NCBI RefSeq assembly: GCF_013377855.1
Contig: NZ_JABXYJ010000005.1
Span: 303,811 to 367,810, forward strand
Source: Cognatundibacterium oligocarboniphilum
Lineage (GTDB): Bacteria; Pseudomonadota; Gammaproteobacteria; Burkholderiales; Burkholderiaceae_D
Reading direction: 5' to 3'
Length of the DNA: 64,000 bases
In this document: piece after piece, positions 16,083 to 20,774 of the stretch
Numbering within the stretch: the first letter of the stretch is position 1
Layout: each line of letters opens with the position of its first letter
The notes under the pieces: generated by a model
The model's input: the letters and a program-made list of their open reading frames with translations, nothing else
The model's database searches: none
Told to the model about the DNA's origin: nothing
Translations under genes and position numbers: made by a program

Positions 16083-16900
16083 GTGTTTTATGGAGGGGAT
16101 TTTGACTGGCACGTATTACTTGCGTCGCCGTTTCCGGCTTTTACCCACCATACCTGGAGCCATAATCTGGGTATTCTGTTCCAGAACTGGGTGGTGCTCA
16201 GCGTTTTCTGGTCGCTGATGCTGATTGTGTCGAGACGAATTACGCTCAGCATGGTTTTGTTCGGTATTGTGTACTTAGGATTTATCATTGCCAATGCACT
16301 GAAGCTGAAATACCGCTCAGAACCTTTGCTGCCGTGGGATATTGCGATGTTGGGACGGATGATGTCGCTGACTAATACATATCTGTTTTCAGTACGTTTC
16401 ATGCTTTTGCTGCCAGTAGTGCTGGCATTGCTGATTCTCATGCTGACACCCGGGAACAAGCAACCATTCATCTATACATGCTGGTGGATGCAAAGCTGAT
16501 TTCGAGCGATAACTATGATCTGGTAACACCGCAGGAGCAGAAGAAACTACATACAGTGCAGGCCCTGATGATCAGTAATCAGAAGAATATTCATTGGGTT
16601 GAGCCGCATTTCCAGATCAATGACATGGCTCCCCAGATCATGAAATCGGCGGGAATCCCGGCATCACCCTATTGGCAGCAGATCGACCGGGTGTCTCATC
16701 TGATGCCTGCCCAGATTTTCGAGTATTCGGAAGACCGGAATGGCAAAGTTCAGTACATGCACGGGTTGGAAAGCGCACCGTATGATCAGCGCATGAATTT
16801 GCTGACCTTTGACGCTCTGTTTGGTGACCAGCATATCGCCAGCGCACTGAACCGGCGGCCTTTATGGCATACGGCGATGGCAGGGCAGGTGTCTCGGTAA
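16083..16900 (+). pseudogene. LtaS-like sulfatase-family membrane protein, internally deleted
   Basis: Two fragments in different frames. The first (16083-16499) encodes several hydrophobic helices and the loop LKLKYRSEPLLPWDI, characteristic of LTA-synthase-type phosphoglycerol transferases. The second (open from about 16442, with an internal ATG at 16478, to TAA/stop at 16900) encodes a sulfatase-like C-terminal tail, TREQATIHLYMLVDAKL and LHTVQALMISNQ...IHWVEP...APQIMKSAGIPASPYWQ. The central periplasmic catalytic domain of about 300-400 residues, with its Thr nucleophile and metal ligands, is absent, and the pieces are joined out of frame near 16440-16475. The N-terminus also appears short. 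Enzyme activity is therefore not expected. It lies between a terminator and slyD. Confidence 0.75.
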
Positions 16901-17063: not shown

Positions 17064-17543
17064 ATGCAAATCAAAGCCAATACCGTCGTCAGTCTGAATT
17101 ACGTCATGTACAACATGGATGGTGAAGTGATTGACCGCAACCAGGATCCTATCGTTTATTTGCATGGCGATTACGATAATATTCTGCCGGCCGTAGAAGC
17201 TGCATTAGAGGGAAAGCAGACCGGAGATAAAGTCAGCGTGGTGCTGGCGCCCGAGCAAGGTTTTGGCGATATTGAACCGGATTTTGTGCGGGAAGAAGAT
17301 ATCAGTGCTTTCCCGCCTGACATTGAAGTCGGCATGATGTTTGAAACCCGCGATCCGGATACCGAAGAAACAATGCAGTTCCGCGTGCTTAAAATCGATG
17401 CCGGCACAGTGACGCTGGATGGCAATCATCCACTGGCTGGTATGACAATTCGTTTTGATACCGAAGTGCTTGATGTCCGTGAGGCCAGCGATGAAGAGGT
17501 GGTGCATGGTCATGTGCATGGCGCGGGCGGTCACCATCATTGA
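17064..17543 (+). CDS. slyD: FKBP-type peptidyl-prolyl isomerase SlyD
   Basis: A 159-residue SlyD-like proline isomerase and chaperone. The FKBP part is split by an insert-in-flap domain: YNMDGEVIDRNQDPIVYLHG and ILPAVEAALEGKQTGDKV, then the IF domain with PEQGFGDIEPDFV (about 68-130), then GNHPLAGMTIRFDTEVLDVR. The His-rich tail HGHVHGAGGHHH is a short version of the nickel-binding tail of E. coli SlyD. Its promoter and leader are separate from the decayed gene upstream. A copy of the palindromic repeat element follows, then a J-domain gene. Confidence 0.9.
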   Translation: MQIKANTVVSLNYVMYNMDGEVIDRNQDPIVYLHGDYDNILPAVEAALEGKQTGDKVSVVLAPEQGFGDIEPDFVREEDISAFPPDIEVGMMFETRDPDTEETMQFRVLKIDAGTVTLDGNHPLAGMTIRFDTEVLDVREASDEEVVHGHVHGAGGHHH

Positions 17544-17708: not shown

Positions 17709-17993
17709 ATGCACACAAAAGACCATTACCTGATTCTTGGTATTGCGCCGAATGCGTCAATGGTGGAAATCAGGAAAGCCTACCGCCAGAAAGCCGCTGA
17801 ATTCCATCCTGACCGGAATGACTCAGAATTTGCGGCGCAAAATTTTCATGCGGTGAAAGAGGCTTACGACGTATTGTCGGACGATGCGGCGCGTGCTGCC
17901 TATGATGAAAACCGTCGCCGCAATCTGCTTGATTCGCCGCTTGAGACCGCCGCTGAAATCTGGAAAGCTTATTTATCAGGAGTATTGCAGTGA
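17709..17993 (+). CDS. Short J-domain (DnaJ-like) protein
   Basis: A 94-residue protein that is almost only a J domain: DHYLILGIAPNASMVEIRKAYR (helices I-II), the HPD motif in AAEFHPDRND (His34-Pro35-Asp36), and AVKEAYDVLSDDAARAAYDENRR (helices III-IV), followed by about 20 residues. There is no Gly/Phe region or zinc-finger, so it is not canonical DnaJ. Such proteins stimulate the ATPase of an Hsp70 and target it to a specific client. It overlaps the next gene by four bases, so it belongs to an operon with unrecognised proteins, which may be its clients or partners. Confidence 0.85.
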   Translation: MHTKDHYLILGIAPNASMVEIRKAYRQKAAEFHPDRNDSEFAAQNFHAVKEAYDVLSDDAARAAYDENRRRNLLDSPLETAAEIWKAYLSGVLQ

Positions 17994-18580
17994 AGCTGTC
18001 CCGTTTTTTTGAAGATCTGATGTCAGTTTACAGGGCTGAAATTGAAGATTTAAAATCTGATTCCGAAGGTAACAATATACTGAAGGCGCGCTTGCGCGAG
18101 AAGGCATCCCAGTTGCCTTTGTTGTTACCGATGATGGCGAGTAATCCCGAAATGCTGGCGTCGGCATTTCATCAGGGATTTATTTTTCTTAACCCCCTGG
18201 TGCTGGAAGCATTGGTGGGTAAAGAGGAAGTGCGTTTGCCGGAATGGAAAAGCCTGTCTGCCGCCGTGCGCCTTGAATTCTGGGCAGAGCCACTGGCAAA
18301 AACCGTGCTGGCAGAGCCTGCCGGAGATCGCTTTCTGGTGACGGCAGCTGCGCTGGAGTATCTGTATCGTGGCGTGCAGAGCCGTAAAGGCAGTGCGGCC
18401 GCCGATGCTGATCAGGATGATGATGAGCAGAACGAGGAAAACGATGACCGCGAAAATGGTGATCTGGATGGCCAATATGGCCGTCACGGTCGTGATGACG
18501 GTGATGATGGTGATGACTACGATCTGGGCGAGGCTGGCGCTGACTGGCTTGCCGAGCAAGGCTTTGACCGTAAAGAGTAA
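17990..18580 (+). CDS. Unrecognised protein with acidic C-terminal tail
   Basis: A 196-residue protein I do not recognise. Residues 1-130 look helical and globular (SRFFEDLMSVYRAEIEDL..., with hydrophobic LLLPMMASNPEMLASAFHQGF). Residues about 132-185 are low-complexity and rich in Asp, Glu and Gly (QDDDEQNEENDDRENGD and RDDGDDGDDYD), probably disordered. It starts at GTG 17990, behind AGGAG, overlapping the J-domain stop; the coupling suggests a functional link. No signal peptide or clear membrane helix. It is 11 bases before another acidic-tailed protein. Confidence 0.8.
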   Translation: MKLSRFFEDLMSVYRAEIEDLKSDSEGNNILKARLREKASQLPLLLPMMASNPEMLASAFHQGFIFLNPLVLEALVGKEEVRLPEWKSLSAAVRLEFWAEPLAKTVLAEPAGDRFLVTAAALEYLYRGVQSRKGSAAADADQDDDEQNEENDDRENGDLDGQYGRHGRDDGDDGDDYDLGEAGADWLAEQGFDRKE

Positions 18581-18591
18581 GGATAAGAAGA

Positions 18592-19353
18592 ATGACTTTA
18601 CCTGCAGTGATTGAGGCGCAGAATCTGATTCTGGCCGGTGATATTTCCGGCGCAGAATATGCGCTCGCGAATATCGCCGAAACCCACGGCGATAAAGCGC
18701 TGGTGGCCGCACTGGATGATTTGCCCGCTAAGGATTTACTGGCGGTGATCCGTGAATACGATGCTTCAAAAGAGTCGCTAGTGAATCTGGTGGTGACGCC
18801 GGAGCAGTTTGCCCAGGCAGTGGTGCTGGAACGTCGCTATGGTGACCAGACCCATGAGCAGCTGCGTGGCATGATCAATTCCGTCATTTTCCGCGATGGC
18901 GCCGATCCTGCTGAATTTTTGTATGAAATCGCAGAAGTGGAGGGCGGTTACGATGCCCTGGTTGACTATTTACTTGATCGTGCGCAGATGGTCGAGCACT
19001 TTTATAAATATGCGACTTTCGATCTGTATGAATACGGCGACGGCGAGAAAACCCGGGCCCGTGAAGACGACCTGATGCATCTCGACCACGACCATGAAGG
19101 CGTTGCGTCACCGCTCGACATGGCCAATCTGGAAGATCACGACTGGATGCAGGTAACGTATATCCTGCGTTATGAATTGCCGGAAATTTTCCGTGAAGTG
19201 CTGATGAAATTGCGGGCACGTTATCAGGCCTATCTGGCCACTCTGCAAAGTGATGAGCCTGAAGTCGCCGGCGAAGGCGAAGGCGAAGCGGAAGAGGATG
19301 AGCGTCCGAAAAATAACGATGACGGTGATGATGAGGAAGAGTCTGCCTTGTAA
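18592..19353 (+). CDS. Unrecognised protein with acidic C-terminal tail
   Basis: A 253-residue protein I do not recognise. The first 225 residues read as helical repeats (LPAVIEAQNLILAGDISGAEYALANIAETHGD resembles a helix-turn-helix repeat like TPR) and include a His/Asp-rich stretch, MHLDHDHEG. The last 30 residues are strongly acidic (EVAGEGEGEAEEDERP and DDGDDEEE). It has an AAGGATAAGAAG ribosome site 11 bases after the previous gene, so the two are co-transcribed. The two acidic tails in neighbouring genes have no sequence identity beyond composition. Confidence 0.8.
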   Translation: MTLPAVIEAQNLILAGDISGAEYALANIAETHGDKALVAALDDLPAKDLLAVIREYDASKESLVNLVVTPEQFAQAVVLERRYGDQTHEQLRGMINSVIFRDGADPAEFLYEIAEVEGGYDALVDYLLDRAQMVEHFYKYATFDLYEYGDGEKTRAREDDLMHLDHDHEGVASPLDMANLEDHDWMQVTYILRYELPEIFREVLMKLRARYQAYLATLQSDEPEVAGEGEGEAEEDERPKNNDDGDDEEESAL

Positions 19354-19410
19354 ACATACTGTGATCTGAGTCCGGCAGCCGTGCTTTGGACTGCTCCGGA
19401 TTCTTTCCGG

Positions 19411-19450
19411 AAAAATGCAGACTGCGGTTACGTGTTCTGCATTTTTTATT
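19411..19450 (+). terminator. Terminator or attenuator inside the J-domain cluster
   Basis: AAAAATGCAGA and TCTGCATTTTTT form an 11-base stem around a 14-base loop, ending in a T-run. It lies between the 253-residue and 405-residue genes. Confidence 0.75.
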
Positions 19451-19496
19451 GTTGCAGAGTTTGAAAATCGTTTGAGAATCACAAGAGAAAACCGTC

Positions 19497-20714
19497 ATGT
19501 CCGATCAATTTCATATTGCCCTGACCGATCATCGCCCTTTCTTTGAAACGGCGCTGCGTTACGGTGTACAGCGGGCTATTATTCCCAGCAGCAAAATCAC
19601 CGCGATAGAGACCGAAGCGCCGAAAGGGATGGTGCAGATTGCGGCAGCGTTCGGCAGTCAATATTTGCGTCCCGAGATTGAACTGGCACGCCGGCGCATT
19701 GTGAATCTCGCCAGCCTGTATCTGCTGGAAACATCCGGCGGTGATCTGGAGATGGCTGCCAAATTGATCCGCGACAACACCTTTCTGACTTTATCTCGTG
19801 GCGGCTCCGGTTTGCTGAAAGCCTTGTTTGCGATGCCGGAATACCCGCTGCTGGGGCAGGATGTCAAAGGAAGGGTAGAGGATTTTCTGGATGCCTGGTC
19901 ACTGAAGGATAGGCCGGCAGATTACCGGAATGCGCTGGCGCACAGGCAGGCCAATGTAATGGAGATTGAGGCCGGATTCTGGTTTGGCGATATGCTCGGA
20001 TTATCCCGCAGTTATTTAAGAGAGGAAGATGTCGAAGCGGCGGCAATCGTCCGGACGGCTTTACTGACAATGATGTTTGCCGATCAAGGTGCCGTACTGG
20101 AAAATCAGCTGGAGTTTGCCACGCTGATTGAATCTGTGCGCCGTATGGGCGTTGCGAAGCGAAATAAAGCCGTCGCTGCACTGGATCTGACGCTTGTTCC
20201 TGAACAATTTACTGCCATTGCACGACGTATCGCAGAAGAGATCCGGACCCATGATCTGCCGCTGCTGAACGATAAAAACACATCGCTCGACAAGCTGGTA
20301 TTCAGTCTCAAGGACCGTTATTACCTGAAAGATCATGAGATTGAGGATACATCAGAATATGATGCACTGGTTTCCAAGGAATGGACCCGGCTGACCAAAG
20401 GTAAAACTGATGTTGATTCGCTCATGACGCTGTTTCTGTGTATGGCTGCCGGTGTCGCGCCCAAAACAAGTTTGCCGGAAAAAACGGCTAAAAGCATTGT
20501 GAAAAAATTCCGGGCTGAAGGTTTTTCTCATGAGCTTGCCGCTCAATGGATAAAAACGTCAGCGCCGCATGAAAAACAGGAGGGGCTGCTGGAAGACTGG
20601 CATCATTTTGTTGAAGAGGCCGGCAATTATCTGCTCGATGACTGGGATACCAATTACAGTGGTGCATTGCGTTTTCTGAATATGCATTGCCACATTCAAC
20701 AAGCTGCCAGATAA
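19497..20714 (+). CDS. Unrecognised 405-residue protein
   Basis: A 405-residue cytosolic protein I do not recognise. Predicted mostly helical throughout, with no membrane segment, signal peptide, nucleotide-binding loop or evident catalytic motif. Noticeable segments are LSRGGSGLLKALFAMPEYPLLG (about 98-119), EAGFWFGDMLGLSRSYL (157-173), and a C-terminal HHFVEEAGNYLLDDWD. It follows the acidic-tailed genes but is separated from them by a hairpin with U-tail, and a further terminator follows it, so it may be a partly independent unit. There is a weak AAGAGAAA ribosome site. Codon use looks like that of the neighbours. Confidence 0.8.
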   Translation: MSDQFHIALTDHRPFFETALRYGVQRAIIPSSKITAIETEAPKGMVQIAAAFGSQYLRPEIELARRRIVNLASLYLLETSGGDLEMAAKLIRDNTFLTLSRGGSGLLKALFAMPEYPLLGQDVKGRVEDFLDAWSLKDRPADYRNALAHRQANVMEIEAGFWFGDMLGLSRSYLREEDVEAAAIVRTALLTMMFADQGAVLENQLEFATLIESVRRMGVAKRNKAVAALDLTLVPEQFTAIARRIAEEIRTHDLPLLNDKNTSLDKLVFSLKDRYYLKDHEIEDTSEYDALVSKEWTRLTKGKTDVDSLMTLFLCMAAGVAPKTSLPEKTAKSIVKKFRAEGFSHELAAQWIKTSAPHEKQEGLLEDWHHFVEEAGNYLLDDWDTNYSGALRFLNMHCHIQQAAR

Positions 20715-20737: not shown

Positions 20738-20774
20738 AAAAAAAGCCTGACGTGAATATGGTCAGGCTTTTTTA
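20738..20774 (+). terminator. Bidirectional terminator
   Basis: AAAAAAAGCCTGAC and GTCAGGCTTTTTTT form a 14-base stem with a nine-base loop, between the rightward 405-residue gene and the leftward alcohol dehydrogenase. Confidence 0.9.

Follow-up and report, generated by a model that had tools for sequence, protein, structure and literature searches.

A probable divergent betaproteobacterial atcJABC operon in Cognatundibacterium oligocarboniphilum

The closest described relative of the locus treated here is the atcJABC operon of Shewanella oneidensis, which Maillot et al. 2019 (PMC6715715) present as a cold-growth operon. According to their study, a cold phenotype was seen for atcJ, atcB and atcC, whereas an atcA deletion grew like the wild type, and the contacts shown were AtcJ-DnaK, AtcJ-AtcC (through binding of the AtcJ tail) and AtcC-AtcB; in a meeting report (PMC7871303), AtcB is also said to contact RNA polymerase. 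We have analyzed a stretch of 64,000 nucleotides of Cognatundibacterium oligocarboniphilum (contig NZ_JABXYJ010000005.1, positions 303,811 to 367,810; "the window" throughout), in which four consecutive genes very probably constitute a divergent betaproteobacterial atcJABC operon that encodes a DnaK co-chaperone network of the Shewanella type, with a presumed role in the cold. Short AtcJ proteins that carry a PX7W motif were reportedly described, together with atc operons of both beta- and gammaproteobacteria, in a 2023 study of the AtcJ subfamily by Weber et al., which is also said to be the source of the motif's name and its role; the window fits this account. That study is cited in PMC10939069 for conservation in several environmental proteobacteria. 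Among the literature matches listed (titles and the starts of abstracts) there was no paper on the Atc proteins of Undibacterium, which does not show that none exists.

The four genes lie in the order J-A-B-C on one strand, with these coordinates in the window:

17709..17993, + strand: atcJ, a 94-residue class C J-domain protein with a short C-terminal extension
17990..18580, + strand: atcA, 196 residues from a GTG start; conserved N-terminal part, acidic linker, conserved tail
18592..19353, + strand: atcB, 253 residues, starting 11 bases past atcA; acidic linker at the C-terminus
19497..20714, + strand: atcC, 405 residues, of which ~13-186 match the group 1 AtcC proteins defined below

This arrangement had been outlined in a first-pass annotation of the DNA, and its description of a 94-residue J-domain protein with an intact HPD motif, a GTG-start gene overlapping it by four bases, an acidic-tailed gene 11 bases further on and a 405-residue protein is borne out by the open reading frames. 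The Pfam DnaJ domain occupies residues 5-66 of AtcJ (expectation value, E, 7.4e-23) with HPD at residues 33-35. This suits an Atc J protein, a short type that has HPD and, at its C-terminus, an extension of ~21 residues. The AtcA tail is strongly acidic as well, not only that of AtcB. Like the window, the S. oneidensis operon has this gene order and a 94-residue J protein whose short tail carries the motif P-x7-W; the acidic AtcA tail and a homologous N-terminal region of AtcC are likewise common to the window and to atc of the Shewanella type.

Routine family searches place these proteins at the margin of what is catalogued. Genes 2-4 (AtcA, AtcB and AtcC) gave nothing over a cut-off in Pfam, and against the NCBIfam Atc models the scores all fell below cut-off: 59.4 of 150 bits for gene 1 against AtcJ (NF050028, E 3.5e-16), 19.8 of 200 bits for gene 2 against AtcA (NF047888, E 5.4e-4) and 15.3 of 370 bits for gene 4 against AtcC (NF047890, E 0.011). 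Some NCBIfam DnaJ models outscore the AtcJ model on gene 1, as expected for a J domain. The window proteins are too divergent from Shewanella-type sequences for the NCBIfam models and, judged by these scores, lie outside the equivalogs NF050028, NF047888 and NF047890 as drawn, as members of a wider family only.

For a more direct comparison, we used the AtcC model to find reference operons. It had no match in 274 genomes drawn from the class as a whole, so we used E. coli RpoB to choose another target, the order to which G255 belongs, a genome whose RpoB is 81% identical to that of E. coli over 600 residues; 35 of the 247 genomes of this order match the model, 31 of them over the curated cut-off. 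Twenty loci were fetched, namely 16 of the over-cut-off type (group 1), which, to judge from the curated model and from PMC6715715, probably include Shewanella and Aeromonas relatives, and all four divergent ones (group 2). Loci L125-L128 of this order form a divergent atc branch with an AtcA of 137, an AtcB of 215-217 and an AtcC of 306 residues, which stays under the NCBIfam AtcC cut-off and bridges the group 1 and betaproteobacterial (hereafter beta) AtcB profiles. On our side of the comparison, a small set of 43-45 beta sequences per family was used (43 of 45 for AtcA, after removal of the 478-residue AtcA frame of locus L068 and the partial AtcA of L055), together with deeper beta alignments from which identical, short and long sequences had been dropped. 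The latter kept 87 rows for J, 118 for A, 96 for B and 94 for C, but some rows repeat a gene with a different start residue, and sequences distinct by their C-terminal part number 80, 87, 89 and 89, respectively. The alignments designated A1-A3 held 27 of the 45 beta sequences, window included.

Even single window proteins find their counterparts: in phmmer searches of the 20 fetched loci (E at most 1, a small target set), J was matched in 20 loci, A in seven, B in nine and C in 10, at the expected operon positions. In profile-profile comparison, the small beta set matched group 1 with probabilities of 99.4% for J, 91.7% for A, 54.5% for B and 92.2% for C, and group 2 with 99.6% for J, 89.8% for B, 15.7% for A and 4.5% for C, the largest off-diagonal value of this table being 5.3%. 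With the deeper alignments set against groups 1 and 2 pooled, hhalign gave 99.8% for J, 96.3% for A (E 1.9e-9), 93.9% for B (E 1.5e-7) and 96.7% for C (E 4.3e-10), and no off-diagonal pair exceeded 1.6%. We conclude that all four are homologues of their namesakes AtcJ, AtcA, AtcB and AtcC, AtcB being the weakest link, one that leans on operon position and on group 2.

These matches bear on the first-pass annotation, which had recognized no known family for the last three proteins, had put the locus forward as a candidate for an undescribed system and had proposed profile searches as a check. Those searches lead to characterized Atc families, and the system had already been described in Shewanella (PMC6715715). 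With genes 2-4 distantly homologous to AtcA, AtcB and AtcC, the locus is a new member of a known system and not an undescribed one. A J-domain system unrelated to atc, in which a J protein happens to stand beside acidic proteins, would sit well with the empty Pfam results for genes 2-4, the NCBIfam cut-offs not reached and the structural models of AtcC and AtcB that find no significant Foldseek match in the PDB; it would have to explain away profile matches that fall position by position with low off-diagonal values, the same gene order and the same J tail motif. We regard it as very improbable and reject it as contradicted by the deeper hhalign table.

The linkage of the four genes is retained among relatives beyond anything that chance would give, which upholds the earlier suggestion that a dedicated J-domain co-chaperone is coupled to its partners in operon-like fashion and answers the proposed check of gene neighborhoods. 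Forty-three of 44 relatives' loci show J-A-B-C on one strand, and the 44th (L055) begins inside atcA at a contig end; among named loci (the best 80 of 265 relatives in a scan with AtcB), 78 of 80 are JABC and the remaining two lie at contig ends. The two sets overlap and their counts are not independent; three loci stand outside the counts, L184, whose contig stops past atcB, and L055 and L142, which a contig end truncates within atcA. The fetched operons of groups 1 and 2 have a gene order identical to that of the window. The stop of atcJ and the GTG start of atcA share four bases in the window and in all 43 relatives that have both genes (starts chosen by script), whereas the two genes are separated by a gap of 7-81 in group 1. 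In one relative, L068 (also L151), no stop codon separates AtcA from AtcB, and the joint frame of 478 residues reflects either a natural AtcA-AtcB fusion or an assembly error.

AtcC was found in 45 of the 118 genomes searched, the window's own genome counted, i.e., in 40 of the 43 genomes of its genus and in five others, and all four genes occur together in 39 of the 40 carriers of the genus, the remaining one being cut by a contig end. The three genomes of the genus in which AtcC was unmatched are G007 (65% complete), G024 (73%) and G020 (94%). Across Burkholderiales, atc is a patchy trait: of 300 genomes sampled, 15 match AtcC, a count that takes in the window's own genome and two weak hits. 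No AtcC was found in plasmids. The top relative in the AtcB scan (98%) is from U. griseum, and the best 80 of 265 relatives include Undibacterium, Sapientia, Solimicrobium, Herminiimonas, Glaciimonas and Collimonas, and further Herbaspirillum, Rhodoferax, Polaromonas, Acidovorax, Accumulibacter, Dechloromonas and others. By these relatives the window most likely belongs with Undibacterium. Several of these genera usually inhabit cool water or soil.

Beyond gene order, the C-terminal ends of AtcJ, AtcA and AtcB carry strongly conserved motifs:

17937..17963, + strand: P-x7-W motif of the AtcJ tail, PLETAAEIW (residues 77-85), the presumed AtcC-binding site
18542..18577, + strand: conserved C-terminal motif of AtcA, DWLAEQGFDRKE
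19339..19350, + strand: C-terminal [DE]-S-A-[LI] of AtcB, ESAL in the window, invariant

P-x7-W is present in the window, in all 43 beta relatives that carry atcJ, in 78 of 79 named beta loci and in 16 of 16 group 1 AtcJ proteins. A script recovered it in three of the four group 2 proteins; the fourth, L128, is truncated at its N-terminus so that the tested stretch missed the tail, and the motif is present there too. For AtcA and AtcB, counts refer to sequences that differ from one another over the final 100 residues: AtcA has GF[DE]R, 1-4 residues from its end, in 79 of 87 and, no more than 20 residues from its end, QGF[DE] in 84 of 87, and AtcB ends in [DE]-S-A-[LI] in 89 of 89, preceded by ~30 poorly conserved and mostly acidic residues. 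By analogy with the AtcJ tail, the two ends may be short binding motifs carried on tethers. Here the branches part company, since AtcB ends in DDMFSFL[DE] or close variants in group 1 and in DDMFAPL in group 2. In length, the window AtcB (253 residues) is nearly equal to that of group 1 (251-255).

AtcC differs in length. The beta proteins run to ~405 residues (range 393-425), as compared to 297 (range 296-306) in group 1, the Shewanella type, and 306 in group 2; the pooled comparison extends the match to profile position 266. An AlphaFold model of AtcC (predicted local distance difference test score, pLDDT, 88; predicted template modeling score, pTM, 0.77) is nearly all helical, and the AtcB model is helical with lower confidence (pLDDT 68). 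Foldseek searches of the PDB returned nothing significant for either, the best hits having E 1.4 with a template modeling score of ~0.1 for AtcC and E 0.23, among assorted helical proteins, for AtcB. Searches of the PDB by sequence, with phmmer and with profiles, brought nothing usable: the AtcA, AtcB and AtcC profiles had no match at E 0.1, a group 1 AtcC (L109) had none at E 1, and P0004 had only chance matches (E 0.49 and 0.64).

Such differences invite the thought that a homologous operon has taken on a different job, sharing ancestry and the DnaK-AtcJ-AtcC wiring with Shewanella and serving some process other than growth in the cold. An AtcC longer by ~110 residues with an unmatched C-terminal part, AtcA and AtcB tails that differ between branches, and the sparse occurrence in Burkholderiales all lean that way; the retention of the operon through nearly the whole genus, the conserved AtcJ tail motif and the cool habitats of several carriers lean the other, and on balance we consider a change of job unlikely, if worth keeping in mind. 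A bolder proposal would make the beta branch a rewired atc machine, in which AtcC acts as a hub that reads the tails of J, A and B, perhaps through its extra domain, and DnaK is loaded on a target other than, or besides, RNA polymerase; the C-terminal domain of ~110 residues would have been gained here (or lost in the gamma branch), with the [DE]SA[LI] end of AtcB and the GF[DE] end of AtcA set on probably disordered acidic tethers. We offer this as speculation and think it improbable.

Several observations also weigh against a divergent atcJABC operon of the Shewanella type. All four proteins fall short of the NCBIfam Atc cut-offs; the one in the AtcB position matched no Atc model at all. Against group 2 alone, A and C are weak, C being under the top off-diagonal value, and against group 1 AtcB alone, B is weak both in the small set and in the deeper alignment (40.9%). 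The C-terminal part of AtcC, compared by itself with that of group 1, gave no match (0.3%), and one named relative, L205, lacks the W of P-x7-W, which is replaced. Finally, atcC may be partly uncoupled from atcJAB, because a hairpin with a trailing T run sits in the atcB-atcC gap, which spans 143 bases in the window. In relatives this gap ranges from 2 to 431 bases, so that atcC may be regulated separately. The hairpin is the first of two such structures:

19410..19447, + strand: hairpin then T run in the atcB-atcC gap, -18.3 kcal/mol, z -4.9, a possible terminator or attenuator
20739..20773, + strand: intrinsic-terminator-like hairpin past atcC, -18.6 kcal/mol, z -6.1, with a T run

A scan for promoter and terminator patterns found no more of them in the DNA than in shuffles and listed neither hairpin; its loop limit was 8, which is relevant to the hairpin at 20739-20773.

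If the locus is a divergent atcJABC operon, as we favor, it would work as follows; the gene content, order and homology and the conserved HPD and tail motifs are seen directly in the sequences, and all of the protein contacts and the cold role in this organism are extrapolated from Shewanella. AtcJ would stimulate and recruit DnaK through its J domain and dock through its P-x7-W tail on AtcC, a helical adaptor; AtcC would hold AtcB, and AtcB would carry the complex to its target. The operon would in this way bring DnaK to machinery bound by AtcB and AtcC, probably that of transcription, and so permit growth in the cold. A four-gene cluster of no known role thus becomes a named and directly testable hypothesis, and comparisons of the Atc network gain a wider span of sequences. 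Another, remote model operon would also be of use for the question why DnaK needs a co-chaperone of its own in the cold. Possibly important contacts are indicated by the motifs that do not change inside the beta branch or between the two branches, namely the P-x7-W of AtcJ, the last four residues of AtcB and the GF[DE] tail of AtcA. The features that merit attention are the length of AtcC and the conserved ends of AtcA and AtcB.

Just upstream of the operon lies a gene that the first-pass annotation had read as adding a folding theme:

17064-17543: slyD-like gene that passes the Pfam cut-off for FKBP_C but not those of the NCBIfam models

The gene is where it was reported. Of the 44 loci, 33 have a slyD hit ahead of the operon, every one of them from the window's genus; of the 80 named loci, 32 do. 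This could suggest a wider folding island in which the J protein acts on SlyD or on metal-protein clients. Such hits are, however, missing from all five loci of other genera, from five loci of the genus that have upstream sequence and from 46 of the 78 named JABC loci (+ strand only, with flanks of at most 4 kb and some contigs shorter). As slyD is a neighbor at the level of the genus and stands outside the conserved atc unit, the folding theme falls away, and we reject such an island as hardly credible.

In the HscB-IscU/HscA system, too, a class C J protein is dedicated to a partner whose gene lies next to its own, a comparison drawn in PMC6715715. The window differs in that no iron-sulfur partner was recognized among genes 2-4 and a separate HscB is presumed to be encoded elsewhere: besides AtcJ, the genome (G000) gave just two matches to the DnaJ family at E 0.001, C31:96482 (DnaJ) and C30:166042, and the latter, a weak match just over the DnaJ cut-off, is presumably HscB. 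Upstream of slyD, at 16083-16900, two overlapping open reading frames of 138 and 140 residues had no Pfam family at E 0.01; the first seems, judged by eye, to consist of membrane helices, and the pair are possibly remnants of one longer gene.

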